Positions 1,628-15,425 of a stretch of DNA of 22,856 nucleotides are shown one piece after another. Within the stretch, counting starts at the first letter, position 1. Every line of letters starts with the position of its first letter. Source of the stretch: a virus; the IMG/VR virus record IMGVR_UViG_3300037189_017653, positions 1-22,856 of that record. One strand, written 5' to 3'. A program made the translations under genes and the position numbers. The notes under the pieces were generated by a model. The model did no database searches and was not told where the DNA came from. It saw nothing but the letters and a program-made list of their open reading frames with translations.

Positions 1628-2497
1628 ATGGCTGAAAAATATTTTGAAAAATTTCCTATTATTAGATATAACGGTATACCTGTTCGTAATATTACCGAAC
1701 GTGCAATTGTTTTAAATTCTGTTTATAATAGTCCGATTTTTTACTATCCATATGATATTCAACAAGGTGAGCATCCTGATGAAATAGCTGATCGTTATTA
1801 TCAAGATGAATATATGGGCTGGGTTCTTCATATAACAAATAAAGTTGTTGATCCATATTATGATTGGTATCTTGATCAAGCAACTTTTAATGATTTCATT
1901 ATTAAAAAATATGGTAGTTTGGAAAATGCTACAACAAAAATAAAATATTATAGAAATAATTGGTATTCTAATGAAGGTACAATTTCTATATCTGCTTTTG
2001 AAAATTTAACCTCAACTGCTAAGAGATTTTATGAACCAATTTATGCTGATATTCTTTTTTCTACCACACCGCTTGGATATAGACGAAAACAAATCGATTG
2101 GAAACTTACAACAAATAGTATTGTGCAATATACTGTAAATGGTTCCAGTTTTATAAAAGATGAAATAGTTGATGTATATAATAATACAACTATTATAGGA
2201 AATGGACAAGTTTGCAGTAATAGTAGTTCTTTACTTATGATTCAACATACATTGGGTAATGTGACACAAAATGGTGCATTGCATTATGTTATGGGCAGAG
2301 AAAGTAAAGTTAAAATTCTTTATACTAATGCGACTCTTATAACAAATAATATTCCAACAAATGAATCAACTTATTGGAGTCCGGTTTATTATTATGATTA
2401 TGAGACAGAAATCAACGAAAAAAATAAATCAATTCAAGTTTTGAAAAAACAATATTCAGGTCAAATTGCAAGTGAACTAAGGACTTTGTTAAAATAA
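1628..2497 (+). CDS. gp53: Baseplate wedge protein gp53, enlarged
   Basis: gp53 joins neighbouring wedges to each other and to the hub during baseplate assembly. Residues about 45-85 hold the family core: E-x-P-D-E-I-A, a tyrosine-rich turn, G-W-V-L-H-I, N-K-V-V-D-P-Y-Y-D-W, which parallels the T4 sequence with W-V-L-L and D-P-Y-Y-G-W and is thought to adopt a LysM-like fold. The C-terminus has the expected Y-W-x-P-V then Y-E-x-E-x-N-E motif. At 289 residues it is much longer than T4 gp53 (196). The extra length lies mainly in residues about 150-245, part of which resembles the beta-repeat seen in gp7 and gp8. AAGGA at 1614-1618 is a good ribosome site. The stop codon abuts the next ATG. Confidence 0.88.
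   Translation: MAEKYFEKFPIIRYNGIPVRNITERAIVLNSVYNSPIFYYPYDIQQGEHPDEIADRYYQDEYMGWVLHITNKVVDPYYDWYLDQATFNDFIIKKYGSLENATTKIKYYRNNWYSNEGTISISAFENLTSTAKRFYEPIYADILFSTTPLGYRRKQIDWKLTTNSIVQYTVNGSSFIKDEIVDVYNNTTIIGNGQVCSNSSSLLMIQHTLGNVTQNGALHYVMGRESKVKILYTNATLITNNIPTNESTYWSPVYYYDYETEINEKNKSIQVLKKQYSGQIASELRTLLK
2150..2326 (+). repeat. Beta-repeat module inside gp53
   Basis: Residues 175-233 of gp53 follow the pattern seen in gp7 and gp8: an aromatic residue, then (D/E)-x-V, a loop, G-x-V, an N-S-S-x-L stretch, a short hydrophobic strand, Gly, and a final strand near G-x-x-S-x-x-K-I. T4 gp53 has no counterpart. The alignment is by eye and short, so homology rather than convergent beta sequence remains to be shown. 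Confidence 0.45.
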
Positions 2498-3742
2498 ATG
2501 GGAAATAATATTTCGATTGGTGATGTAAGAGTAGAAAGACTTATTTTAACTTCTTCTCGTGGTTCTCTAACACTCACGACATCATTTTTGTCAGCATCAA
2601 TTTATGAAAGTATTTTTACGCCAGGAATAGTTTGTGATATAACTGTTCTTGATTCGCAAGATATTGTAGGCAATTTGCGCCTGCTTGGCGATGAATTAAT
2701 TGAATTTAATATGATAAGCCCAAGTGATGAAAGAGCAAATTATAAGTTTGCATTGTATGAACGTGGCGAGGGCCAGCAATTAGCAAACCAAAGAGCAAAA
2801 ACATATGTACTAAAATGTGTTAGTATTGAAGCAATGTATGCTCAAAATGAATATGTACAAAAAGGTTATGAAAATGTTCTTAATTCTGAAATAGTTGAGG
2901 ATATAACAAAAACATATCTTCGTTCCGATAAACAAATAATTACAGAACAAACTAAAAGCCCACAAATGTTACCTATTAGTAATTTGAGTCCATATAAAGC
3001 TATTAGCTTAGTAAAATCAAGATCAATATCAGTTGAAAACCAGTCATCATCTTATGTATTTTTTGAAACCAGACAAAATAGTGAACAAATATTTAAATTC
3101 GTTACTATTGAAAATTTATTTGCTACAGAACCAGTTAAAAATTTCACACAATCAAGCGCTATAAATATTAATGCGTTAAGTCCAGATCATGATAGAAATA
3201 TTTTATCATATCAAGCACCTACCGCATTATCGGCTCTTGATCGTATAAGTTATGGTGGTCCAACAAGAGTAACCACATTTAATTTTACTACATGGGAATA
3301 TAATATTAATGATGAACGAGTAAGTGATACAGTTTTTAAAGATGGTGGCGATAGTAGTGGTGGTACTGATGTTTCGAGTGAATTTAAAAGTAGATATTTG
3401 AATCCAAGAATACCACCACAATCATTTATTCCGGTTGATAATTCACAAAGACCTGTAACTTATATTCCTGAAGGAACTCCAGGTTTACAGGCATATATAG
3501 CATTATTATTACAAAATGCAGTAAAGATAAGAGTGCCTGGTGATTTTATTTTAGCTCCTGGGGTTACTATTAATTGTGCATTTCCAAATAATTCTGCTAC
3601 TACCGGCAATGTTAAAGAGGATACAATGCTATCCGGTAAATTTCTTATCTCTAGAATACATCATAAAATAGGTCTTGTCGCCGAAAAACCTAGATATACT
3701 TGTATTGTTGAATGTCTAAAAGGTCGTTATAGAGAGGGTTAA
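2498..3742 (+). CDS. gp27: Baseplate hub protein, gp27-like
   Basis: A 414-residue protein close to T4 gp27 in length (391). gp27 is the trimeric hub that connects the tail tube to the gp5 spike. The N-terminal 60 residues contain a block typical of hub proteins: S-I-Y-E-S-I-F-T-P-G followed by D-I-T-V-L-D-S and a G-D-E-L-I-E-F strand. The C-terminal part has P-G-D-F-I-L-A-P-G, then S-G-K-F-L-I-S-R-I-H-H-K, the usual hub ending in which a barrel strand precedes a conserved His-containing strand. It lies directly before the OB-fold gp5-like gene, as expected for a hub and spike pair. Its ATG abuts the gp53 stop without a gap. Sequence identity to T4 gp27 looks low, so the call rests on motifs plus position. 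Confidence 0.75.
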   Translation: MGNNISIGDVRVERLILTSSRGSLTLTTSFLSASIYESIFTPGIVCDITVLDSQDIVGNLRLLGDELIEFNMISPSDERANYKFALYERGEGQQLANQRAKTYVLKCVSIEAMYAQNEYVQKGYENVLNSEIVEDITKTYLRSDKQIITEQTKSPQMLPISNLSPYKAISLVKSRSISVENQSSSYVFFETRQNSEQIFKFVTIENLFATEPVKNFTQSSAININALSPDHDRNILSYQAPTALSALDRISYGGPTRVTTFNFTTWEYNINDERVSDTVFKDGGDSSGGTDVSSEFKSRYLNPRIPPQSFIPVDNSQRPVTYIPEGTPGLQAYIALLLQNAVKIRVPGDFILAPGVTINCAFPNNSATTGNVKEDTMLSGKFLISRIHHKIGLVAEKPRYTCIVECLKGRYREG

Positions 3743-3745
3743 ATC

Positions 3746-5383
3746 ATGGTTCAGAGAAATCTTGGTCAAAATATGATATATTGGATTGGCGAAGTTGTTG
3801 ATGTAAATGATCCTCACCAATCCGGAAGAGTTAAAATTAGAGTGTATGGCTATCATGATGATAGGACCAATATACCTGATTCCGCTTTACCGTGGGCACA
3901 AGTAACACAATCTCCAACATCTGCAGCTATCGGTAGAATAGGATCAGCACCTGTTGGTCTTGTGGTTGGTTCTCGTGTTGTAGGTTTTTGGGCAGATAGT
4001 AGCGATCTTCAATACCCATTAGTAATTGGCAGTATGGGTAAAGCTGGTGATCCAATAAGTGGTCAAATGTTAAATGGATCACCAGCAATTGATACAAGTT
4101 TGGGTAGTATTCCTCAATCATCTAATGGCAATCCAAATAATCCATATTCTTCATTAAATGATAGCAGAGTTTCAGTTTCGGATATTGATTCGGGTAGTGC
4201 AAATGTTACTTCCGTAAGCAGTAATACAGGCGGGGTACTTACAACTCTTGTAGAGTCAAAGATGGCCAGTGCTACATTACCAACAGTTGCTTCATATAAT
4301 AAAAATAGTAATAACAATGTTTTGGATATTGTTAATGCGGTTGATCCGGTTGGTGCATTATCTTCGCTCCCTTGTTTGAATAATAATCTTATTTCGATTA
4401 GTTCAATACTTAATTTTCTAGGTAATACTGTCCAAGGTGTTGTTTCTGGAATTGTTAATACTGCTGTCGGAGCAATTAAAAACGCTATTTTAAAACTGGC
4501 TCAAAAAGTTGGTTTATTTAAATTATTAGGAACGTTAAATGGCGCTGTTTCAAAAGTGCAAGAAGTACAAAAACTTATTAATACATTAAATGTTAGAGTT
4601 TGCGGCGCCAATCCTATAAATCAAGGTATATTTGATACGGCAAATTATGCGATGGCCTCTGTTATTGGTGGGTTGAATTCCACTGTTGGTGCAATAACTG
4701 GAGGTATTAACAATGTTATTAATTTGGGTACTGGGGCTGTAACCGCTGCTGGTTCTGCAGTTAGTGGTGCCACTAATTCTGCAATAAATTCTTTAATTAA
4801 TTCAGTACCAAAAGTACCTGCGATAGCAGTAGCTACTGCCACATCCCCAAGGCCTTTAACAATTAGTATTGTACAAACGCCACCTGATAATTATATTCAA
4901 CAGTATTACACCATTGATCGCGATCCTTATCCAGGATATATTGAATGGAAAGACCCAACAAGTACCGAGTCTTCAGTTTATACATTAAGAAATGGTGAAC
5001 CAAATTACGCAAATGCACAAGAACATACTACATTTGCAGCACAAAATCATTTTACATCAACTATTGGTGATACATTACTTAGTGGACAACCTTTATCATT
5101 TGATACATTATCACAGGCGGTATCAGGTAGTCTTAATTTTACTCAGGGGTTTGGTTTATCAAAAGTTCTAGGCGCAGGTTTTGGTACGGCTAAAACTTCG
5201 GGTGTTCTTGCAGCACTTATACCTACGGTTATTTCTGGATTAAATACATTATTTCAATCGGGTAATAGTCAGGCCAAATATACTGGCGATACTACCACCG
5301 AATCGGTAAATAATTTTATGCAGTCGCAAGGATTATTGGCAAGACAAAGTGCTTTAATGCGCGCCGGATTAAATAGGACTTAA
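3746..5383 (+). CDS. gp5: Baseplate hub spike protein, gp5-like OB-fold part without lysozyme
   Basis: Residues 10-95 match the N-terminal OB-fold of T4 gp5: W-I-G-E-V-V-D, D-P-x-x-S-G-R-V-K-I-R-V-Y-G, L-P-W-A-Q-V, then G-L-V-V-G-S-R-V-V-G-F and P-L-V-I-G-S-M-G. This domain binds the hub. T4 gp5 continues with a lysozyme domain and a beta-helix in one 575-residue chain. Here no lysozyme motif is visible. Residues about 208-365 are instead Gly/Ala/Asn/Ile-rich with amphipathic or hydrophobic helices, and residues about 385-430 form a Tyr/Trp/Pro-rich segment. The C-terminal part is again Gly/Leu-rich and ends in a charged helix. The needle function appears as the next gene. GAGAGG shortly before the ATG is a good ribosome site. 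The OB call is firm; the role of the remainder is unknown. Confidence 0.82.
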   Translation: MVQRNLGQNMIYWIGEVVDVNDPHQSGRVKIRVYGYHDDRTNIPDSALPWAQVTQSPTSAAIGRIGSAPVGLVVGSRVVGFWADSSDLQYPLVIGSMGKAGDPISGQMLNGSPAIDTSLGSIPQSSNGNPNNPYSSLNDSRVSVSDIDSGSANVTSVSSNTGGVLTTLVESKMASATLPTVASYNKNSNNNVLDIVNAVDPVGALSSLPCLNNNLISISSILNFLGNTVQGVVSGIVNTAVGAIKNAILKLAQKVGLFKLLGTLNGAVSKVQEVQKLINTLNVRVCGANPINQGIFDTANYAMASVIGGLNSTVGAITGGINNVINLGTGAVTAAGSAVSGATNSAINSLINSVPKVPAIAVATATSPRPLTISIVQTPPDNYIQQYYTIDRDPYPGYIEWKDPTSTESSVYTLRNGEPNYANAQEHTTFAAQNHFTSTIGDTLLSGQPLSFDTLSQAVSGSLNFTQGFGLSKVLGAGFGTAKTSGVLAALIPTVISGLNTLFQSGNSQAKYTGDTTTESVNNFMQSQGLLARQSALMRAGLNRT

Positions 5384-5392
5384 AGATATATT

Positions 5393-6214
5393 ATGTCAGA
5401 CCCAAACAACAGACGTCACCCAGAATCTACATTCGAAGCAACATACCCTTATAATCAATCAACGATTACTCGCAGTGGGCATGAGATTCATATTAATGAT
5501 ACTCCAGAAAAAGAAAGTCTGAGAGTTGCCCACACTAAAGGTTCATATGTAGAGATTGATAAAGATGGTAGAACAGTAATTAATTCTGTCGGTAAAGCTT
5601 ATTACTATATGTGTGATGGGTTTACCACTACAGTTGATGGCCATTATGACTTAAAAGTAAAAGGTGTAATGAATGTTAATGTAGACGGATCGGTAAATGA
5701 ACAAACCGCAGGTAATCGCTATACTTCAGCAGGTGGTGAATATACAGTAGGTGTTGGTGGCGCTTTAACACAAATAGTTGTCAGCGATAAAAATGAAGAA
5801 ATCGGCGGTAAAAGTACAATTGCAATTAAAGGTGATGAAAATAAACAAGTTGATGGTGAGTCAGTAACACAAAATAAAGGTTTAAAACTTGATTTATTAC
5901 AAAAAGATTGGGCCGTAAATCAATCTTCTGCTGGTAATATTGAAATCATTAGTGGTGGTAATATACGATTTAAATGTAAGAATTTTGAAGTTGAAGCAGA
6001 TTCAATCACTTTAAAGACCATTGGCGGTGATGTAATCATTACTTCTTCGGCTCAAGTAATATCTACGTCTGCACAACTAACGAGAATTGAAGCAACTACG
6101 GCGCAAATACAGACAACTGGTGGTGATGTAAGTATCACTTCTACGGGCAAGGTAATGTCGACATCCGTCGGTCAAACAATTCTCACCGCAAGCAAGATTA
6201 TTTTGAATGGATAA
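5393..6214 (+). CDS. Spike needle protein, equivalent to the gp5 C-terminal beta-helix
   Basis: Residues 18-70 carry the sequence that leads into the T4 gp5 beta-helix: Y-P-Y-N, then S-G-H-E-I-x-x-N-D-T-P and a segment with G-S-Y-V-E-I-D-x-D-G. The remainder is short alternating strands with many Gly, Val, Thr and Asp, as in trimeric beta-helical needles. Two C-terminal units start G-G-D-V-x-I-T-S about 31 residues apart (near residues 211 and 242), suggesting an internal duplication. The protein would continue the spike made by the preceding OB protein and help pierce the outer membrane. No PAAR tip protein (T4 gp5.4) is encoded nearby. It is nine bases from the previous gene. The needle fold is well supported; a trimer is inferred from the family. 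Confidence 0.82.
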   Translation: MSDPNNRRHPESTFEATYPYNQSTITRSGHEIHINDTPEKESLRVAHTKGSYVEIDKDGRTVINSVGKAYYYMCDGFTTTVDGHYDLKVKGVMNVNVDGSVNEQTAGNRYTSAGGEYTVGVGGALTQIVVSDKNEEIGGKSTIAIKGDENKQVDGESVTQNKGLKLDLLQKDWAVNQSSAGNIEIISGGNIRFKCKNFEVEADSITLKTIGGDVIITSSAQVISTSAQLTRIEATTAQIQTTGGDVSITSTGKVMSTSVGQTILTASKIILNG

Positions 6215-6217
6215 ACA

Positions 6218-7312
6218 ATGACAATAAACCTTTCAGAACTTATTCCAGATGTTGGTTGTCCCGCCACTCTTTTACCAAAACCCGGTGATCTTGCTATACC
6301 ATTAAAAAAAATAGCTTCATTGCCGGCAATATTGACTGTTCTTGGTTATAAAGAAATAGCAGATCAAATTAGAGCAACACTTCAAACAATTGACGATATA
6401 CTTGGCAATTATCCTATTTCCATATCAAAACCTCTTTATAGTGCATTTTCGTCACTTGAAATTGAATGGGAACTTAAAGCAAGGGCGATAGTTTACGAAT
6501 TTAAATTATTTGTTCTTGCAAAATGTCTGGAAATTATTGGTTCAATTATCAGTAATTTAGTTACAATTCCTGTACCATTTCTTGGTAATGTAAACATTTT
6601 ACAACTTTTTACGGATCCTGAATATAGAGCTGAAGTAAAATCAAGAATAACAAATAATTTAAGTGGTGCTGTTGCCGCAGTTGGTAGACTAGGTAAATCA
6701 TTTAGTGGTGAATTTGGTCTTGAAATACCTGAAATGCAAGTCCAAGAAATTTGGTCTTGGTTTGTAATGGAGATGACAAATCTTGCTACGAATATACTGC
6801 ATCAAGCATTAAATGCATTAATTAGTATATTCAATAATATTTGGAGATCTCTAGGATTGCCTCCACTCGTGGCTCTAGTTACTTTAGATATTGAAGCTAT
6901 TATAGAAAGTGCAATTGCATCGGTTTCTAAACTCTTACCGATAGAACAATATTATAAAATGGTAATAGCGGCTTTAAAATCAATTAATATTTTTGGTTTT
7001 AGTCTTTTAGATTTATTAGGTGGTGCTTATGAAGATTTTACAGAATCTGCTGAACTTACAATAAATAGGTTGATATCTGCGGCTAAAGATTTTGCTGTAA
7101 AATGGCCACTTTATTTGATTGAACAATGGCTACAAATTGTGACAGGATTTTTTAATCGTATTGGTCTTGGTGCATTATTACAGTATATACCTTTTACATT
7201 TTGTAGTTTTCTTCAATTAATTGGATTTCCTACTTCTTTTGCTGGATTAATACCAGCTACTTTACCGGTAACAGAAGATCAAATAACACCACCACCAAAT
7301 GTATCAGGATAA
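6218..7312 (+). CDS. Hydrophobic helical protein of the hub region, function unknown
   Basis: I do not recognise a T4 homologue. The 364-residue chain is almost entirely predicted helix, with long Ile/Leu/Phe-rich stretches near residues 94-130, 177-222 and 296-350, several broken by Pro and Gly. It ends in a polar P-P-P-containing tail. There is no signal peptide. It lies three bases after the needle gene and four before gp25, and both neighbours are virion proteins, so it is very probably made late and built into or chaperoning the hub. Possible roles are a hub plug, a tape-measure-associated factor (T4 uses gp26, gp28, gp29 and gp51 for hub assembly) or a protein that enters the host membrane on injection. 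None of these is shown by the sequence. Confidence 0.7.
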   Translation: MTINLSELIPDVGCPATLLPKPGDLAIPLKKIASLPAILTVLGYKEIADQIRATLQTIDDILGNYPISISKPLYSAFSSLEIEWELKARAIVYEFKLFVLAKCLEIIGSIISNLVTIPVPFLGNVNILQLFTDPEYRAEVKSRITNNLSGAVAAVGRLGKSFSGEFGLEIPEMQVQEIWSWFVMEMTNLATNILHQALNALISIFNNIWRSLGLPPLVALVTLDIEAIIESAIASVSKLLPIEQYYKMVIAALKSINIFGFSLLDLLGGAYEDFTESAELTINRLISAAKDFAVKWPLYLIEQWLQIVTGFFNRIGLGALLQYIPFTFCSFLQLIGFPTSFAGLIPATLPVTEDQITPPPNVSG

Positions 7313-7315
7313 GAA

Positions 7316-7738
7316 ATGTCAACAAGAGCCGATAATTTTACACAAACAAAGTTAGTACCGGATCTGTTTTCGGATTTCCTTGATGATCTTACACCACACC
7401 CAATTACCAAAGATCTTGTTCGTGTAAAAAATGAACAGTCGATAAAACAAGCACTAAAAAATTTACTTTTAACTAATCTAGGTGAGAGAAGATTTAATCC
7501 AAATTTTGGTTCAGATGTTAACAATTCTTTATTTGAACCAAATGATGTTATTCTTCAAGAAAATTTAAGAAATGCTATAACAAATGCCATACGATTTCAT
7601 GAACCAAGAGTCAATTTACTTTCTGTACAAATTTATAATTATCCAGAAGAAGATCGTTTAGCAGTAAATCTTATTTTTTCTATAATAAATAGTATTACAC
7701 CGCAGAGTTTAAATCTGATCCTTAGACGAGTACGTTAA
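7316..7738 (+). CDS. gp25: Baseplate wedge protein gp25
   Basis: A 140-residue protein, near T4 gp25 (132). It has the two hallmarks of the gp25/lysozyme-like baseplate family: L-G-E-R-R-F-N-P-x-F-G-S (residues 55-66) and the E-P-R motif (96-98) followed by hydrophobic strands. gp25 sits in the inner wedge next to gp6, gp7 and gp53 and provides the handshake that templates the sheath. Despite the family name it is not a working lysozyme. AGGATAAG just before the ATG is the ribosome site. gp6 follows after two bases, the usual gp25-gp6 pairing in contractile systems. Confidence 0.92.
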   Translation: MSTRADNFTQTKLVPDLFSDFLDDLTPHPITKDLVRVKNEQSIKQALKNLLLTNLGERRFNPNFGSDVNNSLFEPNDVILQENLRNAITNAIRFHEPRVNLLSVQIYNYPEEDRLAVNLIFSIINSITPQSLNLILRRVR

Positions 7739-7740
7739 GA

Positions 7741-9564
7741 ATGGCAAATAATTCAATTAGTCTCGTAAATCTTGACTTTGATACATTAAAAGCAAATCTC
7801 AAGACCTATCTAAAATCACAATCGCAGTTTAGTGACTACGATTTTGATGGATCTAACATGTCTGTATTATTGGATATTCTTTCATATAATACACATTTAA
7901 ACGCGTTTTACATGAATATGGCTGTATCAGAGATGTTCTTGGATTCTGCCCAACTTCGTAATAGTGTTATTTCTCGCTCTAAAGAACTAAATTATATACC
8001 AAGATCAGCAAAATCATCTCAAGCTTTGATTAATATTCGGATTCAACAATCCAATCTTTCATCATTTACTATCCCATTCGGTACAAAATTTACCGGTAAA
8101 TCCAGCAATGGAACATTCCAGTATTCAACTGATAGAGGATATATTATTTATCCAGCAAACGGTGTCTTTCAAGCTAATGTCAGCATCTATGAGGGTAGAT
8201 ATTTAACTGAGGCTTTTGTTGTGGATGAATCAATTGAAGCGCAAAGATTCATTATGTCAAACGATAATATTGATACAGACTCGTTGACTATTTTACTATC
8301 CGAGAACGATGGGCAGGTTAATACATATTTGACCAAAGCTGAAAATCTATATGGACTTAAGGCAAATTCATCTATTTACTTCTTGCAAGCAACTGAAGAT
8401 ACTAGATATGAGATTGTATTTGGTGATGGTGTATTTGGACGTAAGCCACTCGATAATTCAGTGATATACTCGGAGTATAGAGTGTGTTCAGGTGCAAATG
8501 CTGATGGATCAACTAACTTCACTCTTGATGATAATCTAGGACCTGTTAATGGTATTGGATCTATCTCATCTACAATTACAGTAATTAATCCAAGTTCTGG
8601 TGGAGCTGGTGCTGAGACATTAGAGTCTATTAGATTTAACGCACCCAGATATTTTCAGACACAAGAACGGGCGATTACCACAAACGACTTCTCTGCTATA
8701 ATAACACAGCAATATCAAAATATCAAAAATGTATACGTATATGGGGGCGAATTAGCTCTAGGTACACCAAAATTCGGAACAGTTCTAATTGCTCCTATTA
8801 CCTATTCTGGTGCTATTTTGTCACAAACAGAAAAAAATTCTATTGAAACCTTTCTAAAACCAAGAACGACTATTGGAATCACTCCAGTTATAGTCGATCC
8901 AGATTACTTGTATGTGTTAATAACAACTAACGTTAAATATAACAGTCGCGCAACTATACTTTCCGATATCGATATACAGTCACTTTGCAAACAAGCTATA
9001 CAAACCTATAATAACGATGAGCTTTTAAATTTCAATACTGAATTGAATTTATCAAGACTAGAAAATATCATCAATGATATTGATGCATCGGTAATAGGTA
9101 ATCAATCCGAGATCATGATTAAAAAAATCTTTAAGTCGGAAGTGTTCGAAAATTCATTTCCGTCAATAGCGTTTCGTAATGAAATTGTACCAGGAACGCT
9201 AATTTCTAGCGAATTTTTATCACTAGGTAAAAGATATCAATATACGGATTTTAATCCTAATAATAATACCTTAGTCGTAGATATAATTGATGGCAAGACA
9301 GTCATAAATAATAAGAGTAATGTTGTCTATATTAAAGACATTACTAACCCAGCTTCGATATCGTACCAAAATTCCGGTACTATTGATTATGTGGCAGGCA
9401 CAGTTAGTATTAATTCTATACAGTTCACCTCTTTCGAAGGTAAGACGGGATTGGAATTTTCTGCAAAACCATTATTCCAAGATGTATCTTCAAAAGAAAA
9501 CGATGCCATAGCTATTGATGTGCAGGCTGGGATACAAGTAAATATCCGGAGTGTTGACGGTTGA
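7741..9564 (+). CDS. gp6: Baseplate wedge protein gp6
   Basis: A 607-residue protein, somewhat shorter than T4 gp6 (660). Two gp6 copies per wedge form the ring that holds the baseplate together and rearranges on contraction. The N-terminal 95 residues contain the family block: D-F-D-G-S-N-M, L-L-D-I-L-S-Y-N-T, M-A-V-S-E-M-F-L-D-S-A and S-R-A/S-K-E-L-N-Y-I-P-R-S. Further on are F-G-D-G-V-F-G-R-K-P (about residue 227) and G-G-A-G-A-E-T-L-E-S-I-R (from about 287) leading into A-P-R-Y-F-Q-T-Q-E-R-A, the baseplate J-type core. Its TGA stop overlaps the TTG start of gp7, so the two are likely translated together. Confidence 0.93.
   Translation: MANNSISLVNLDFDTLKANLKTYLKSQSQFSDYDFDGSNMSVLLDILSYNTHLNAFYMNMAVSEMFLDSAQLRNSVISRSKELNYIPRSAKSSQALINIRIQQSNLSSFTIPFGTKFTGKSSNGTFQYSTDRGYIIYPANGVFQANVSIYEGRYLTEAFVVDESIEAQRFIMSNDNIDTDSLTILLSENDGQVNTYLTKAENLYGLKANSSIYFLQATEDTRYEIVFGDGVFGRKPLDNSVIYSEYRVCSGANADGSTNFTLDDNLGPVNGIGSISSTITVINPSSGGAGAETLESIRFNAPRYFQTQERAITTNDFSAIITQQYQNIKNVYVYGGELALGTPKFGTVLIAPITYSGAILSQTEKNSIETFLKPRTTIGITPVIVDPDYLYVLITTNVKYNSRATILSDIDIQSLCKQAIQTYNNDELLNFNTELNLSRLENIINDIDASVIGNQSEIMIKKIFKSEVFENSFPSIAFRNEIVPGTLISSEFLSLGKRYQYTDFNPNNNTLVVDIIDGKTVINNKSNVVYIKDITNPASISYQNSGTIDYVAGTVSINSIQFTSFEGKTGLEFSAKPLFQDVSSKENDAIAIDVQAGIQVNIRSVDG
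9548..9551 (+). promoter_or_regulatory. Ribosome binding site that supports a TTG start for gp7
   Basis: GGAG lies 9 bases before the TTG at 9561-9563. No in-frame ATG or GTG lies close upstream, and the next in-frame ATG would remove the conserved N-terminal motif of gp7. The site sits within the last codons of gp6, and TTGA carries both the gp7 start and the gp6 stop. Confidence 0.6.
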
Positions 9565-11807
9565 GCTCAATAGAAAAGTTTATATCGCCCTTTATTCAGC
9601 AACAGTTTCCATCGTTCTATAAGACAGAGGGTCCTAACTTTATTGCGTTTGTTAAAGCTTATTATGAATGGCTCGAACAAGATGCACAGGCGATTGGACA
9701 CGCGCGTTCATTGCTTAACTATAGAGATATAGATGTAACTCAAGAACAATTTATTAAATACTTTAAATCCGAATTGATGTCCAAGATTCCAGAATCTATA
9801 GTCACAGACAAAAGATTGCTGTTGAAACACATTACTGACCTTTACAAAGCAAAAGGGTCGAAACGTGCATATGAACTCTTGTTCAGAATAGTATTTGGCG
9901 AAGATATAGATGTATACGTTCCTAATGAATACATTTTTAAGCCATCAGATAATGTATGGAAAGTCCCAAGATATATTGAGGTGACATCCCATCCTAATCT
10001 CAATCAATTAGCTGGAACCCAAATACAAAATACTAGTAATACAGCATCCGCCGTTGTTGAGAATGTGAGCTCAAAAATTGCCAACGATAAAACAATTAAC
10101 ATTCTTGAATTGTCATCAATCCGAGGTGAATTCTCACGCGGTGATCGCGTATATCAAACATCGGAAGAATTTATTAGTTTAAATGAAGCCATTCGTATAA
10201 CTGGTTCTTTGACTGCAGTAGCTATATCTCAAGGAGGTACGGATTATTCTGTTGGCGATCTTATTAACGTATTAGGAGAATCCGGTGGTATAGATGCAAA
10301 AGGTCGAGTATCGTCCGTAATTGATGGATATGTAGGTGCTTTACAATTTACCATCGGCAATGGCGGGAGTGGCTATACAACAAATGCAGTTGTATCAGTT
10401 ACTACAACACTAAATTTAAATATTACTGGTCAATTAGGGTTTATAAACTCTGGAGATGTTGTTACCGATTCAGTTACCGGGGCTAATGGATCCGTTGTAT
10501 TTTCTAATTCATCTGCAGTGAGTCTGATTGGTTTCTCAACATCTCCAAGTTTTCAAATTAATGGAAAACTATTAGGTCCATTTGGAAATGCTACGATAAC
10601 ACGTGTTATCGGCGGTACAGGTTTCGATGGTAATTTTAATGTTGGTTCTATAACTAATAAAGAAATCATATCCTATAACAATACATTAATAGATTCTTAT
10701 CTAACATTGAATTTAGATTCCTTATCAAATACATTACAGATAGCTATAACAGGTACATCAGGTGTATTTTCCGTGTCTGATACTGTTCAAGGAAGTGCTA
10801 ATGTATTACATCTTGAAGGAATTACCGTAACACCTAATAATATAACGAAGGGTGAATCCTTATCAAATACAACATTAGGCATTTCAAATTTGTTTGTTTA
10901 TAGATCAGATGAATCATTGGTATTTTGTACCGGACCAGATTCCAATTTAACTAACGCAAATCTTGTTGCTGGTACAATTTTAATTAGCAATACTACATCA
11001 TCAGTCTTTCAATTAATAAATAAACCGGTTAAACAACAGTCAATTGCGAATGCTGCTATAGCGAGTGTTAACGCTACTTCAATTGTTGTTAATTTGCAAA
11101 GTGGTTATTTCGTTCAATCATCAACAATAACAGATATTACCAGTTCCGCTACTGCAACTATATCAAATGTAGTGAGATTAACTGATTGGAATCTTCAAGG
11201 ATCAATTTCAAATAATGATAATCTAGATACTTTGATTCAAAACGGATTAGCGTTGACAACAGTTGAAGTTGGCACCATTGCATCTTTATCACAAGTGAAT
11301 CCTGGATTAAACTACCTCACTACCCCATATATAACAGTCGTGGAACCTGAAATTGCATCGCTTTATTTGCTTGATTCTAATCTTACACAAAAAGGTAATA
11401 ATGCAATTATAACATCAACGATTTCTGGTAGTAATGGTGCTATAACTGGCATAGAAATTACAGATTCAGGATTCGGATACTCAGAAAACGAGAATTTGAC
11501 ATTGGTGAGTAATACTAATCCAAGTATTGCAAGAGGTATTTCAATTGTTTATAAGGCAGGTAAAGGCGAAGGCAAGTGGTTGAATAGGAAGAGTTTTTCA
11601 AGTGACGAAATGTACATACAAGATGGCTTTTTTTATCAAAACTATTCATACCAGATAATAGCCGAAAGAATGCTTTCATCATATGAAACACTCGTCAGAG
11701 ATCTTATTCATCCCGCCGGTATTGCTTTATTTGGTGCCTATCGTGCTATAGATTATGTTAATAGTGATACCGATGTAATCGTTCAATCTTCAATTTTACA
11801 ACAGTAA
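9561..11807 (+). CDS. gp7: Baseplate wedge protein, gp7-like
   Basis: A 748-residue protein between gp6 and gp8, the position of gp7 in T4 (1032 residues), where it initiates wedge assembly by binding gp10 and gp8. The N-terminus has Q-Q-F-P-S-F-Y-K-T-E-G-P then F-V-K-A-Y-Y-E-W-L-E, common in marine T4-like wedge proteins, and a K-G-S-K-R-A-Y-E-L-L-F-R-I-V-F-G segment near residue 115. The C-terminus has Q-D-G-F-F-Y-Q-N-Y-S-Y and H-P-A-G-I-A-L-F-G, a widespread myovirus ending. Between them lie Gly/Asn/Ser-rich beta segments, including two stretches like the gp8 repeats. The start is TTG, supported by GGAG upstream and overlap with gp6. The structural role is secure; the gp7 label depends partly on gene order. 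Confidence 0.72.
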   Translation: MSSIEKFISPFIQQQFPSFYKTEGPNFIAFVKAYYEWLEQDAQAIGHARSLLNYRDIDVTQEQFIKYFKSELMSKIPESIVTDKRLLLKHITDLYKAKGSKRAYELLFRIVFGEDIDVYVPNEYIFKPSDNVWKVPRYIEVTSHPNLNQLAGTQIQNTSNTASAVVENVSSKIANDKTINILELSSIRGEFSRGDRVYQTSEEFISLNEAIRITGSLTAVAISQGGTDYSVGDLINVLGESGGIDAKGRVSSVIDGYVGALQFTIGNGGSGYTTNAVVSVTTTLNLNITGQLGFINSGDVVTDSVTGANGSVVFSNSSAVSLIGFSTSPSFQINGKLLGPFGNATITRVIGGTGFDGNFNVGSITNKEIISYNNTLIDSYLTLNLDSLSNTLQIAITGTSGVFSVSDTVQGSANVLHLEGITVTPNNITKGESLSNTTLGISNLFVYRSDESLVFCTGPDSNLTNANLVAGTILISNTTSSVFQLINKPVKQQSIANAAIASVNATSIVVNLQSGYFVQSSTITDITSSATATISNVVRLTDWNLQGSISNNDNLDTLIQNGLALTTVEVGTIASLSQVNPGLNYLTTPYITVVEPEIASLYLLDSNLTQKGNNAIITSTISGSNGAITGIEITDSGFGYSENENLTLVSNTNPSIARGISIVYKAGKGEGKWLNRKSFSSDEMYIQDGFFYQNYSYQIIAERMLSSYETLVRDLIHPAGIALFGAYRAIDYVNSDTDVIVQSSILQQ
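10020..10170 (+). repeat. Beta-repeat module in gp7, copy 1
   Basis: Residues 154-203 read I-Q-N-T-S-N-T-A-S-A-V-V, a loop, then I-L-E-L-S-S-I-R-G-E-F-S-R-G-D. The gp8 copy at 14493-14668 reads V-Q-N-T-S-N-A-T-G-I-V-V, a shorter loop, then L-Q-L-K-D-V-R-G-T-F. The match covers two strands and the Gly turn, with a longer loop in gp7. Confidence 0.5.
10440..10615 (+). repeat. Beta-repeat module in gp7, copy 2
   Basis: Residues 294-351 follow the full pattern: G-D-V-V, A-N-G-S-V-V-F-S-N-S-S-A-V, a strand, F-Q-I-N-G-K-L-L-G, then N-A-T-I-T-R-V. The gp8 copies at 13746-13919 (A-N-G-T-V-A-Y-S-N-S-S-A-L) and 15037-15201 (A-N-G-K-V, ending N-A-T-I-Q-Q-V) are closely similar. Confidence 0.6.
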
Positions 11808-11819
11808 GCGATAAAAGAA

Positions 11820-14800
11820 ATGAATTCACAACTAACAATCAATCACTATATAGATAAAGCAAATTCATTTATCGATTCAGTAAAAAACACAGAATCAACA
11901 TACTATGTCTACACAGCCAGACCTCAACCATGGACCAATGCTGCAGGAAGTGCGGATGATACTGCGGTTGAAGTTGTTAACAACTCTGTGAATCAAGTGG
12001 AACTTGACGTATATCGCGATCTTTTATATGGTAAACTAATAAGTAATACAGATGTTATACATGTTGTTCCTCGCTATACCTGGACAACAAATACTGTATA
12101 TGCAAATTATGATCAAAGAGATGCAAATTTATATTCCAAGAATTTTTATGTTGTTACAACCGATAATAATGATCAATACAACGTTTTCAAATGTATTGAT
12201 AATAACGGAAATACCTCTTCAATTGTAAAGCCTTCATTGCAGTCAACAACCGGCACGTTTAAGACTGGTGATGGGTATACATGGAAATACATGTATACCG
12301 TAGATGTTACTGCTAACACTAAATTTACGTCGGCTAATTTTATTCCAGTTATTTCAAATACAAATATTATTGCTGGCGCCGTACCTGGTACAATCGATGT
12401 ATTAAGACTTGTAAACAATGGCATAGGCTATTCCGTATATGAAACTGGTTTTCTAGAATCAATTATCGATAATAATTCGATCAAATTACCAGATAATTCA
12501 TCTGCACTTAATAATTACTATGCAAATTCATCGATTTACTTGAAGTCGGGGTTTGGTGCAGGACAAGTCAGAGAAATTTCTAGTTATATTGGATCGACAA
12601 AGACTGCAATATTATCGTCTCCTGTGGATTCTTATTTAAGATTGGATTTTGCTAATTCATCTTTGATTACAGGTGGCACTGTAGGTGAATCTGTAAAACA
12701 AATTATTGACACTCTATCTTTCACTTCATCTGTTGGTTATTTTAATATTAATGATACAATTGTTCAAACAGATACAGGTATTGTGGCTTCAGTTCTTACA
12801 GCAAATACAACAGCTCTAAGAGTGTCTAGACTTAATAAGAGTCAACAATTATTGATCGATGATCCATTCAGAAATGTTAACGATTCGGGTACTGTAAAAA
12901 CCGATAAAGCCAACATTTCAAACTCTAGTGCACTCACACTATCAGTAGTTTTAACCAATGGTAGCGGATATACATCGAACACAACTGTTACGATCACATC
13001 AAATACAGGTTCCAGTGCTACGGCGAATGCTCAAGCTAATTCGACCGGTAAAATTATAGCTATTAATATAACCAATGCTGGTAACAATTACATTACAGAA
13101 CCATCTGTAATAGTAGCGGCACCAGTCGCGCAAACATTTAATTCAAATACAGCCGTCACCGGCGGAACAGGTGAAGGCAGCAATAACGTAATTACTCTAT
13201 CAAGTGCAGCTGCATTTGTTCAAGGGGATAGGATCAGATATAATGTAAACGCTGGTAATACAGTAATTACTGGTCTATCAAATAATACAACTTATTTCAT
13301 ACAATTTGCTAATGCAACAACAATTGCTCTTTCAAATACATCAAACACGGCGGCAGGTAATCGATTGCCACTAACACCAGGATTGAATCAAACTGGGCAC
13401 GTATTGCAAGGCATTTCAGCAATAGCAAGAATACTACCTAGAGCTTTATATGCTACAAATGCCGCTTCAGGTGCAACATTTACTAGTGATTATTCTAATA
13501 ACGATTTTATTCGAATCGGAGAAAATGCTAACTCAAATATTAGAAAAATTGAATCTGTAAATTCGACTGTTATAGTAGTTAATAAAGGATTCGTAAATAC
13601 TATCTCGAGTGCTAATACATTTAAGATATCTACAGCCGCTTTGCCTACATCTATTGTTATTCAACAGGCAAATGGTATTATCTCTAATACTAATTTGGAC
13701 TCAATAACTATTGCAATTACTAATACCTCGGTTAACGGCGCTTTATTCATAATCGGAGAAAAAGTAAAGTTAGTTGATTCGTCTAATGCATCATTGAATG
13801 CTAACGGAACGGTTGCATATTCTAATTCGTCTGCTCTGTTCATATCATCAATTCAAGGCACATGGTTAGTAAATCAGAGAGTCAGAGGTGATTCCTCTGC
13901 TCTTATTTCTGATATTTCGACAATCGATTCTAGACCTAATATTACAGTTAAAAATCCAATTGGCGACTTCGTCATGGGCCAACTAGTTGATTTTGTAACA
14001 CCGGCAGGTGGAAATTCGGGTATTGCACAATTGATCGGTTCAGTAGATCTTAGTGAAAATAGTATTGAGTATTATATTGGACCTACTGTCAAGATAACAG
14101 GTGATGGTACTGGTGCTATTGCAATTGCGGATGTCAATACATCTATTGGATCGAGTAATAGTATCTCAAGAATTACAGTGATTAATCCAGGATCTGGATA
14201 TACATATGCAAATGTCCAAGTGTATGCAAATACACTATATGGATCAAATGCGGTGATTTCTCCTGTAATCTCCCCTGTTAATGGTCATGGATCAGATCCT
14301 GTTCGTGAGCTAGGAGGAAGATATGCTGCTATATCTACAAAGTTCAATGCGTTGTCGAGTGAAAGTTGGTATTATCCTTCAACAGTTTCATTTAGAAAAA
14401 TTGGTATTTTAAATACCCCAGAGTTTGCTAATACGACTCTTACGGTGTCAAATTTTACAAGAGTTCAATTAGGACTTTCATTACAAACTGGTATTTGGAC
14501 AGAAAACGAAGTGGTTGTTCAGAATACCTCAAATGCTACCGGTATCGTTGTATCCGGTAACTCCACGGTTCTACAGTTGAAAGATGTTAGAGGTACATTC
14601 GTACAATCTAATACGCTATACGCATATAGTTCAGGTTCCACTGCAAATGTGGTCTCTGTTGCAACCAAAACATTTGTATCAAATGAGACTATTACACAAG
14701 CAAATACAGGCGCTAGAGCTAGAGTGGTTTCATCACAAAGTAACACTGTATATTTAACCGATGTCATAGGTCAGTTTGCTAATGGTATGGTAATTTCAGG

Positions 14801-15425
14801 ATCCACATCTAATGCTCAAGCCACAATTACACAGATTAAAACCTCAGATGGAACAAAGGATATAACAACTACATTTGCTAATAGATTTAATCAAACATCA
14901 AGAGTTACACTATCGAGTGTAACAGGATCATTCCAGACATTTGAATATGTAGTTCAGGCAAATACAAACGCTAAAGGTAGGGTTATAAATAGGACGAGTG
15001 ATATTGATCTTACAATTTCGTTAACATCTGGTAATTTTTCAGTTGGTGATACTGTTACAAACTCTAATACATCTGCTAATGGTAAGGTAACATTTGCTAA
15101 TACATCTTATATTAAAGTTACAAGTGTTTCCAATTCAGCTTCATTTTCTGGTAACAATGTGATTGTTAATGGAATTGGCGCTAATGCAACGATTCAACAG
15201 GTCAGATCTGTTCTTATTCTTTCCGATATCGAAGGGAATAATTTTCAAGTAGGGGCTTCATCCATCACTGGACAAAATTCGGCAGCTCAGGGTATTGTAA
15301 GTTTGACCACTAATCCTGATCTTATAAGAAATTCTGGTAAGGTAATCTATACGGAAGCTTCCAATTCAGTTATACATAGAACTACATCTACGACCGAAGA
15401 AATAAGAATTATAATTAAATTTTAA
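11820..15425 (+). CDS. gp8: Baseplate wedge protein gp8, greatly enlarged
   Basis: T4 gp8 is a 334-residue outer wedge protein; this one has 1201. The T4-like parts are at the ends. The N-terminus has A-R-P-Q-P-W (residues 33-38), V-V-P-R-Y-T-W and T-G-D-G-Y-T-W-K-Y-M-Y (149-159; T4 has P-G-D-G-Y-V-W-E-Y-L-F). The last 30 residues run from S-G-K-V-I-Y-T-E to E-E-I-R-I-I-I-K-F (T4: S-G-E-M-I-Y-M-E ... E-E-I-N-I-L-F-T-F). A middle conserved block holds G-H-G-S-D-P-V-R-E-L-G-G (about 822-833) and F-R-K-I-G-I-L (about 858-864). Between these blocks are Asn/Ser/Thr-rich beta repeats: about 600 residues in the first insertion and about 280 in the second. No stop or frameshift interrupts the frame. 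Ribosome site is weak and A-rich. Confidence 0.88.
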   Translation: MNSQLTINHYIDKANSFIDSVKNTESTYYVYTARPQPWTNAAGSADDTAVEVVNNSVNQVELDVYRDLLYGKLISNTDVIHVVPRYTWTTNTVYANYDQRDANLYSKNFYVVTTDNNDQYNVFKCIDNNGNTSSIVKPSLQSTTGTFKTGDGYTWKYMYTVDVTANTKFTSANFIPVISNTNIIAGAVPGTIDVLRLVNNGIGYSVYETGFLESIIDNNSIKLPDNSSALNNYYANSSIYLKSGFGAGQVREISSYIGSTKTAILSSPVDSYLRLDFANSSLITGGTVGESVKQIIDTLSFTSSVGYFNINDTIVQTDTGIVASVLTANTTALRVSRLNKSQQLLIDDPFRNVNDSGTVKTDKANISNSSALTLSVVLTNGSGYTSNTTVTITSNTGSSATANAQANSTGKIIAINITNAGNNYITEPSVIVAAPVAQTFNSNTAVTGGTGEGSNNVITLSSAAAFVQGDRIRYNVNAGNTVITGLSNNTTYFIQFANATTIALSNTSNTAAGNRLPLTPGLNQTGHVLQGISAIARILPRALYATNAASGATFTSDYSNNDFIRIGENANSNIRKIESVNSTVIVVNKGFVNTISSANTFKISTAALPTSIVIQQANGIISNTNLDSITIAITNTSVNGALFIIGEKVKLVDSSNASLNANGTVAYSNSSALFISSIQGTWLVNQRVRGDSSALISDISTIDSRPNITVKNPIGDFVMGQLVDFVTPAGGNSGIAQLIGSVDLSENSIEYYIGPTVKITGDGTGAIAIADVNTSIGSSNSISRITVINPGSGYTYANVQVYANTLYGSNAVISPVISPVNGHGSDPVRELGGRYAAISTKFNALSSESWYYPSTVSFRKIGILNTPEFANTTLTVSNFTRVQLGLSLQTGIWTENEVVVQNTSNATGIVVSGNSTVLQLKDVRGTFVQSNTLYAYSSGSTANVVSVATKTFVSNETITQANTGARARVVSSQSNTVYLTDVIGQFANGMVISGSTSNAQATITQIKTSDGTKDITTTFANRFNQTSRVTLSSVTGSFQTFEYVVQANTNAKGRVINRTSDIDLTISLTSGNFSVGDTVTNSNTSANGKVTFANTSYIKVTSVSNSASFSGNNVIVNGIGANATIQQVRSVLILSDIEGNNFQVGASSITGQNSAAQGIVSLTTNPDLIRNSGKVIYTEASNSVIHRTTSTTEEIRIIIKF
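12741..12900 (+). repeat. Beta-repeat module in gp8, first insertion
   Basis: Starting at residue 308 the pattern F-N-I-N-D-T-I-V-Q-T-D-T-G is followed by a V-x-x-A-N-T-T-A-L-R-V strand. The second half departs from the consensus, so this is a diverged or partial copy. Confidence 0.4.
12930..13125 (+). repeat. Paired G-x-G-Y beta units in gp8
   Basis: Two adjacent units of about 37 residues: T-N-G-S-G-Y-T-S-N-T-T-V-T-I near residue 380 and T-N-A-G-N-N-Y-I-T-E-P-S-V-I-V near 417, separated by an Ala/Asn-rich link. Similar units occur once more in gp8 (N-P-G-S-G-Y-T-Y, near 788) and in gp7 (G-G-S-G-Y-T-T-N and D-S-G-F-G-Y). This is a second repeat type, distinct from the 55-residue module. Confidence 0.55.
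13165..13410 (+). repeat. Single 'T-T-Y-F' beta domain within gp8
   Basis: Residues about 449-530 read N-N-V-I-T-L, F-V-Q-G-D-R-I-R-Y, I-T-G-L-S-N-N-T-T-Y-F-I, A-T-T-I-A-L-S, then L-T-P-G-L-N-Q-T-G-H. This order is one I recognise from marine phage fibre and baseplate proteins as a free-standing small beta domain. A looser relative appears near the C-terminus of the 2054-residue protein (N-V-I-T-I-S-N, T-T-I-K-L-S). Confidence 0.45.
13746..13919 (+). repeat. Beta-repeat module in gp8, full copy in first insertion
   Basis: Residues 643-700: F-I-I-G-E-K-V, then A-N-G-T-V-A-Y-S-N-S-S-A-L, I-Q-G-T-W-L-V-N-Q-R-V-R-G and S-A-L-I-S-D-I. It is the closest relative of the gp7 copy at 10440-10615; 38 bases can be aligned without gaps at DNA level (13801-13838 with 10483-10520). 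Confidence 0.6.
14493..15323 (+). repeat. Tandem array of beta-repeat modules in gp8, second insertion
   Basis: About five consecutive units fill residues 892-1168, with unit starts near bases 14493, 14671, 14932, 15037 and 15210. Units are 35-60 residues. The core is (E/D)-x-(V/I)-x-Q-x-N-T-x-A-x-(G/A)-x-V, a strand ending V-x-G-x-F, then a final A-x-(I/V) strand. The unit at 14932 is shortened and runs straight into the next; the last is partial. The units differ too much in DNA to be recent slippage products. Confidence 0.65.

Follow-up and report, generated by a model that had tools for sequence, protein, structure and literature searches.

In the baseplate of phage T4, as described in the available text of PMC3004832, gp7 and gp8 are peripheral, with gp8 touching gp10, gp7 and gp6, while gp53 belongs to the central gp6-gp25-gp53 part around the hub; that text describes no contact between gp53 and gp8. 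The DNA analysed here, a 22.9-kb virus record (referred to as the window, meaning the whole stretch), has the gene order of a T4-like baseplate region and codes for a gp48-like protein, gp53, hub proteins, gp25, gp6, a gp7-like protein, gp8 and a DUF4815 protein. The baseplate genes of Caulobacter phage Cr30 and Pelagibacter phage HTVC008M follow a similar order. The gp5-like hub region of the window (3746-6214) is divided between ORFs at 3746-5383 and 5393-6214, the second of which possibly codes for a separate needle protein. The N-terminal domain of the window gp53 is T4-like, scoring above the cut-off of Pfam model Phage_gp53 (PF11246, E 4e-7) and matching the sequence of a solved structure, T4 gp53 chain 5hx2_F. 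The N-terminus of the gp7-like protein aligns with residues 645-762 of T4 gp7, and alignment of its family to T4 gp7 extends through domain V (hhalign), whereas nothing in this ORF corresponds to the first 640 residues of T4 gp7. The window gp8 belongs to phrog_438, and alignment of its family profile to T4 gp8 covers three segments that make up a conserved core including the C-terminal segment.

A module of about 60 residues recurs in these three proteins, once in gp53, three times in the gp7-like protein and six times, plus a fragment, in gp8. The first-pass annotation had recognized by eye a family of repeats common to the three wedge proteins, and BLAST, profile and profile-profile comparisons bear this out, every interval that it listed in gp53, gp7 and gp8 containing a copy. 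The unit of about 55 residues that it described does recur, but its length is nearer 60 and it is built of two similar ~30-residue halves (hhalign score 26.1 compared to a maximum of 10.8 in 200 shuffles). We called the six copies in gp8 and two of those in gp7 with a profile grown from gp8 units, which has the consensus TGTFSVGETVTQSNTGANGTVVSANSTTLRLTNVNGTFSNGDTITGSTSNATATVSSVNV. Plain blastp also aligned gp7 277-349 with gp8 1055-1128 at 39% identity (E 1e-6). The copies and the T4-like segments that flank the inserts are listed below.

1628..1987, + strand: gp53, T4-like N-terminal domain (aa 1-120), matched by Phage_gp53 and T4 gp53 chain 5hx2_F
2114..2347, + strand: gp53, module (aa 163-240) inserted after the T4-like N-domain and ahead of the C-terminal helix; family alignment, profile tests and AlphaFold strands at 164-240
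2384..2494, + strand: gp53, T4-like C-terminal strand and helix (aa 253-289), weakly aligned with T4 gp53 152-188
9978..10175, + strand: gp7 module 1 (aa 140-205), equivalent to T4 gp7 domain V; gp7-family hhalign with T4 gp7 and gp8-unit profile match
10437..10601, + strand: gp7 module 2 (aa 293-347), E 1e-9; the copy aligned with gp8 by blastp
11028..11171, + strand: gp7 module 3 (aa 490-537), E 4.8e-7 with the gp8-unit profile
12735..12917, + strand: gp8 module 1 (aa 306-366), E 2.6e-12
13746..13928, + strand: gp8 module 2 (aa 643-703), the copy closest to that of gp53, E 3.5e-12; E 1e-6 with the gp53-only profile
14487..14663, + strand: gp8 module 3 (aa 890-948), E 2e-17
14667..14843, + strand: gp8 module 4 (aa 950-1008), E 2.4e-16
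14922..15062, + strand: gp8 module 5 (aa 1035-1081), sharing part of a half-unit with module 6, E 1.4e-10
15027..15206, + strand: gp8 module 6 (aa 1070-1129), E 4e-13; its barrel aligned to aIF2-gamma domain 3
15243..15314, + strand: gp8 trailing half-unit (aa 1142-1165), below threshold; F-x-x-G...G-x-x-S-x-A-x-G-x-V by eye, 0.3 bits over aa 1149-1161
15315..15422, + strand: gp8, T4-like segment at the C-terminus (aa 1166-1201) that follows the array, aligned with T4 gp8 300-334

The six gp8 copies were detected with E values of 1e-10 to 2e-17. Four of them, together with the trailing half, form an array that sits at a site matching residues ~285-297 of T4 gp8, which runs directly from ~285 to 297 where the window gp8 has some 300 residues. 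Both gp7 copies pointed out by the first-pass annotation are present, but a third (aa 490-537, 11028-11171) had been overlooked. The gp7 copy at 10020-10170 is weak alone; comparison of its family profile with the gp8-unit profile gave an hhalign score of 32.0 (E 1.2e-5), the best of 100 column shuffles reaching 16.3. Judging from their sequences, the gp7 modules probably have the same fold as the rest of the family. Beside module 2, residues 706-751 of gp8 (~13935-14072) gave a sub-threshold match to the Pfam model Gp7_5th (15.3 bits) and may be another diverged copy. A second candidate motif, GSGYT...G-x-G-A-x-A...I...G-x-x-Y, is independent of the module and occurs in gp7 (aa 219-275, ~10215-10385) and twice in gp8 (aa 378-433 and 781-830).

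Information in the module profile peaks at F4, G19, V21, V10, F38, N25, I44, G2 and G46, all core or turn positions. The surface of the module is rich in Ser, Thr and Asn, and the profile contains no conserved aromatic or charged surface patch. A Pfam search with the gp8 tandem region and 23 single units returned sub-threshold, inconsistent matches only: no Pfam model covers the gp8 units, Gp7_5th matches none of the 23, and its score on the window gp8 falls short of the curated cut-off of 27 bits. PHROGs touches the units only inside large families, and searching PDB sequences with the tandem profile yielded nothing relevant. At the level of titles and abstracts, the literature holds no description of such a repeat that we could find, which does not prove that none exists.

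AlphaFold models of gp53 (pLDDT 86, pTM 0.72; ~87-95 pLDDT in the module block) and of gp8 886-1176 (pLDDT 85, pTM 0.52, a tandem model built on 13 sequences) have the same strand order, and in each of them the N-S-S/T motif falls on the hairpin turn that links strands 2 and 3. The best matches of gp53 163-240 (Z 6.4) and of a gp8 module (model residues 175-245, corresponding to gp8 1060-1130; Z 6.8) were to the same domain 3 of a/eIF2-gamma (aIF2-gamma ~326-415), with rmsd values of 2.5-3.1 over ~70 residues, although a VIA Z score below 8 may mean no more than a common arrangement without true relation, and values of 6.3-6.8 would not alone prove the fold. Since both models land on the same chain region, as one fold predicts, the gp53 and gp8 modules appear to share a fold, which at this middling Z is probably a translation-factor-type beta-barrel. 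The likeness to aIF2-gamma domain 3 and EF-Tu type barrels (Z 6.3-6.8 over ~70 residues) implies no sequence or functional relation. A Foldseek search of the PDB with the tandem gp8 model gave no match with E below 0.001. Fold comparison had been proposed at the outset as a check on the shared module; the gp53 and gp8 models agree, in predicted strand order as in the solved fold that they match.

Among gp8 relatives, the number of detected units ranges from 1 to 10 and protein length from 454 to 1275 aa. The nearest of them (L053 and L079-type) have the same copies at the same positions with 49-82% identity, compared to ~30-40% between paralogs, from which it follows that the array is older than their split. 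The gp8 proteins of Cr30, HTVC008M and syn9 also match the module profile, but with only one or two copies, and none was found in gp53 of the named phages tested. The family is not wedge-specific, being found also in further large structural proteins from phages of the cyanophage type: in HTVC008M and syn9 the module occurs in large proteins that are gp7-like or structural, cyanophage structural proteins match the gp8 model, and the gp8-unit profile also matches structural proteins of Salinibacter phages. Some DUF4815 proteins have the module, as does a separate protein that starts with PIAQTF; in the relatives L095:16528-18039, L088:17141-19363 and L102:14018-14815, this separate, module-bearing gene appears to be a part of the DUF4815-type protein. 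The profile further matches a large S-CAM8 protein (L165:1-5485, ~2,490 aa) annotated as 'neck protein', a doubtful label, its length and neighbours suggesting a large structural protein; we therefore make no claim of a neck location for the module from this match. The profile search suggested by the first-pass annotation recovered copies in gp8, gp7 and, through families, gp53, but none that was significant in the window's 2054-residue protein, which was dropped as a carrier, as was gp6. Some relatives of the 2054-residue protein do carry the module.

The gp53 copy is diverged and, at the sequence level, appears to be the weakest link among the three carriers. The likeness of gp53 could in principle be convergence, an unrelated small beta-barrel of similar Asn/Ser/Thr-rich composition, with only gp7 and gp8 truly sharing the module. 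In line with this reading, the gp8-only profile scored a non-significant 2.4 bits on the window's own gp53, and gp53 showed no direct match to gp7 module 1 (hhalign 0.5%), the two being linked only through gp8. However, the same profile scored 28.0, 17.7 and 16.7 bits on gp53 relatives in the same register, where none of 618 shuffled gp53 sequences exceeded 6.5. Conversely, a profile made only from gp53 inserts recovered window gp8 632-686 in register (E 1e-6 in a search of the 13 window proteins, 1e-4 in one of 1,342 proteins), and its best non-gp53 matches among the 1,342 were gp8 proteins. Profile-profile comparison of gp53 with gp8 scored 31.7, and still 21.0 without the three best gp53 sequences, whereas 100 column shuffles reached at most 13.6. 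Given these results and the common strand order and fold matches of the two models, we find convergence far-fetched; the gp53 and gp7 copies both emerge from profile comparisons, that of gp53 from its family rather than from a single sequence. The insert occurs in most uncultured gp53 relatives, all carriers keeping it without frame disruption, and in none of eight named phages including T4. In one relative (L057:380-1549, 390 aa), the module is itself interrupted by an additional ~100 residues.

Taken as a whole, the explanation that we find reasonably probable is that the repeats are homologous copies of a single beta-barrel domain of ~60 residues, which is duplicated internally and related to T4 gp7 domain V. 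The extra copies occupy loops of conserved T4-like cores, just before the C-terminal helix in gp53 and as the row of four with its trailing half in gp8. They would serve as rigid spacers or as packing domains, making the wedge larger and burying surface where subunits meet, rather than as a conserved catalytic or ligand-binding site. Such a spacer or packing role is the most likely one. An arguable though unlikely alternative is that the virion displays the modules on its surface for glycan binding or host adhesion, in a way comparable to the Ig-like domains of other phage structural proteins; the occurrence of the same module on many different structural proteins, its variable copy number and a Ser/Thr/Asn-rich surface resembling that of many adhesive beta domains would all fit. 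However, the conserved positions are hydrophobic residues of the buried type, glycines and residues of the hairpin turn, the best-matching folds are barrels of translation factors and ATPases, not lectin domains, and gp53 should lie centrally in the baseplate, close to the hub, going by the available text of PMC3004832. Because the conserved residues occupy core and turn positions, we favour the structural spacer over glycan binding, which the first-pass annotation had raised and which found no positive support; these positions show no sign of a conserved binding site, and a site varying between copies may be compatible with them. The continuous skirt of sibling domains on neighbouring subunits, proposed in the same annotation, is unsupported because in T4, according to that text, gp53 is central while gp7 and gp8 are peripheral, a geometry from which this phage may differ.

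Going further than a spacer role, the module could be a mobile virion domain that derives from a gp7-type barrel and has moved among unrelated baseplate proteins of one virion. Its copies would then be interchangeable parts that interlock, and the wedge of this lineage would owe part of its cohesion to sibling modules touching one another on gp53, gp7 and gp8, an idea that we consider quite unlikely. Nor do we lean towards neutral filler, i.e. insertions tolerated in exposed loops and kept by recombination and drift with no specific role. The wide variation of gp8 copy number and length and the absence of the gp53 insert from the eight named phages are what such filler would produce, but the gp8 copies are conserved by position, well above the identity between paralogs in the L053/L079-type relatives, and every module-bearing gp53 retains an intact frame. 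These two observations suggest selection, and we consider filler quite unlikely.

Whether spacer or not, the module is a recurring building block of cyanophage-type virions in proteins annotated only as 'structural' or 'baseplate wedge', where it stayed hidden because no Pfam model covers the gp8 units and PHROGs includes them only within large families. Recognizing it as a unit for annotation explains much of the size variation of gp8.

According to the first-pass annotation, T4 gp53 and gp8 have no equivalent of the module, and alignments to both reveal no such insert: T4 gp53 has none before its C-terminal segment and is a compact chain of 196 aa, unlike the window gp53 of 289 aa with its module at 163-240, compactness not being strictly a defining trait. 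In T4 gp7, the region aligned with the first gp7 copy of the window is domain V, and the corresponding Pfam model, Gp7_5th (PF21427), matches 4 of 43 gp7 relatives. The gp8-unit profile alone gave no significant match to T4 gp7, the link running through the window gp7 family. The gp8 model also matched residues 761-848 of chain 9f4a_A0 (rmsd 3.8 over 84 residues), at a Z of 6.6 that is below the level excluding a common arrangement; we take this chain of 1031 residues to be KP1 gp7, since gp7 of that entry has 1032. Domain V is thus likely a relative of the module, so that T4 is not devoid of it. Its position in gp7 is homologous, but it differs in being a single copy with a longer hairpin, absent from T4 gp53 and gp8. 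Most simply, a relative of gp7 domain V was copied into other proteins and became the module, a direction in which T4 gp7 domain V would resemble the ancestral copy. This suggests that baseplate proteins become larger by acquiring copies of a domain which in T4 seems to have stayed in gp7.
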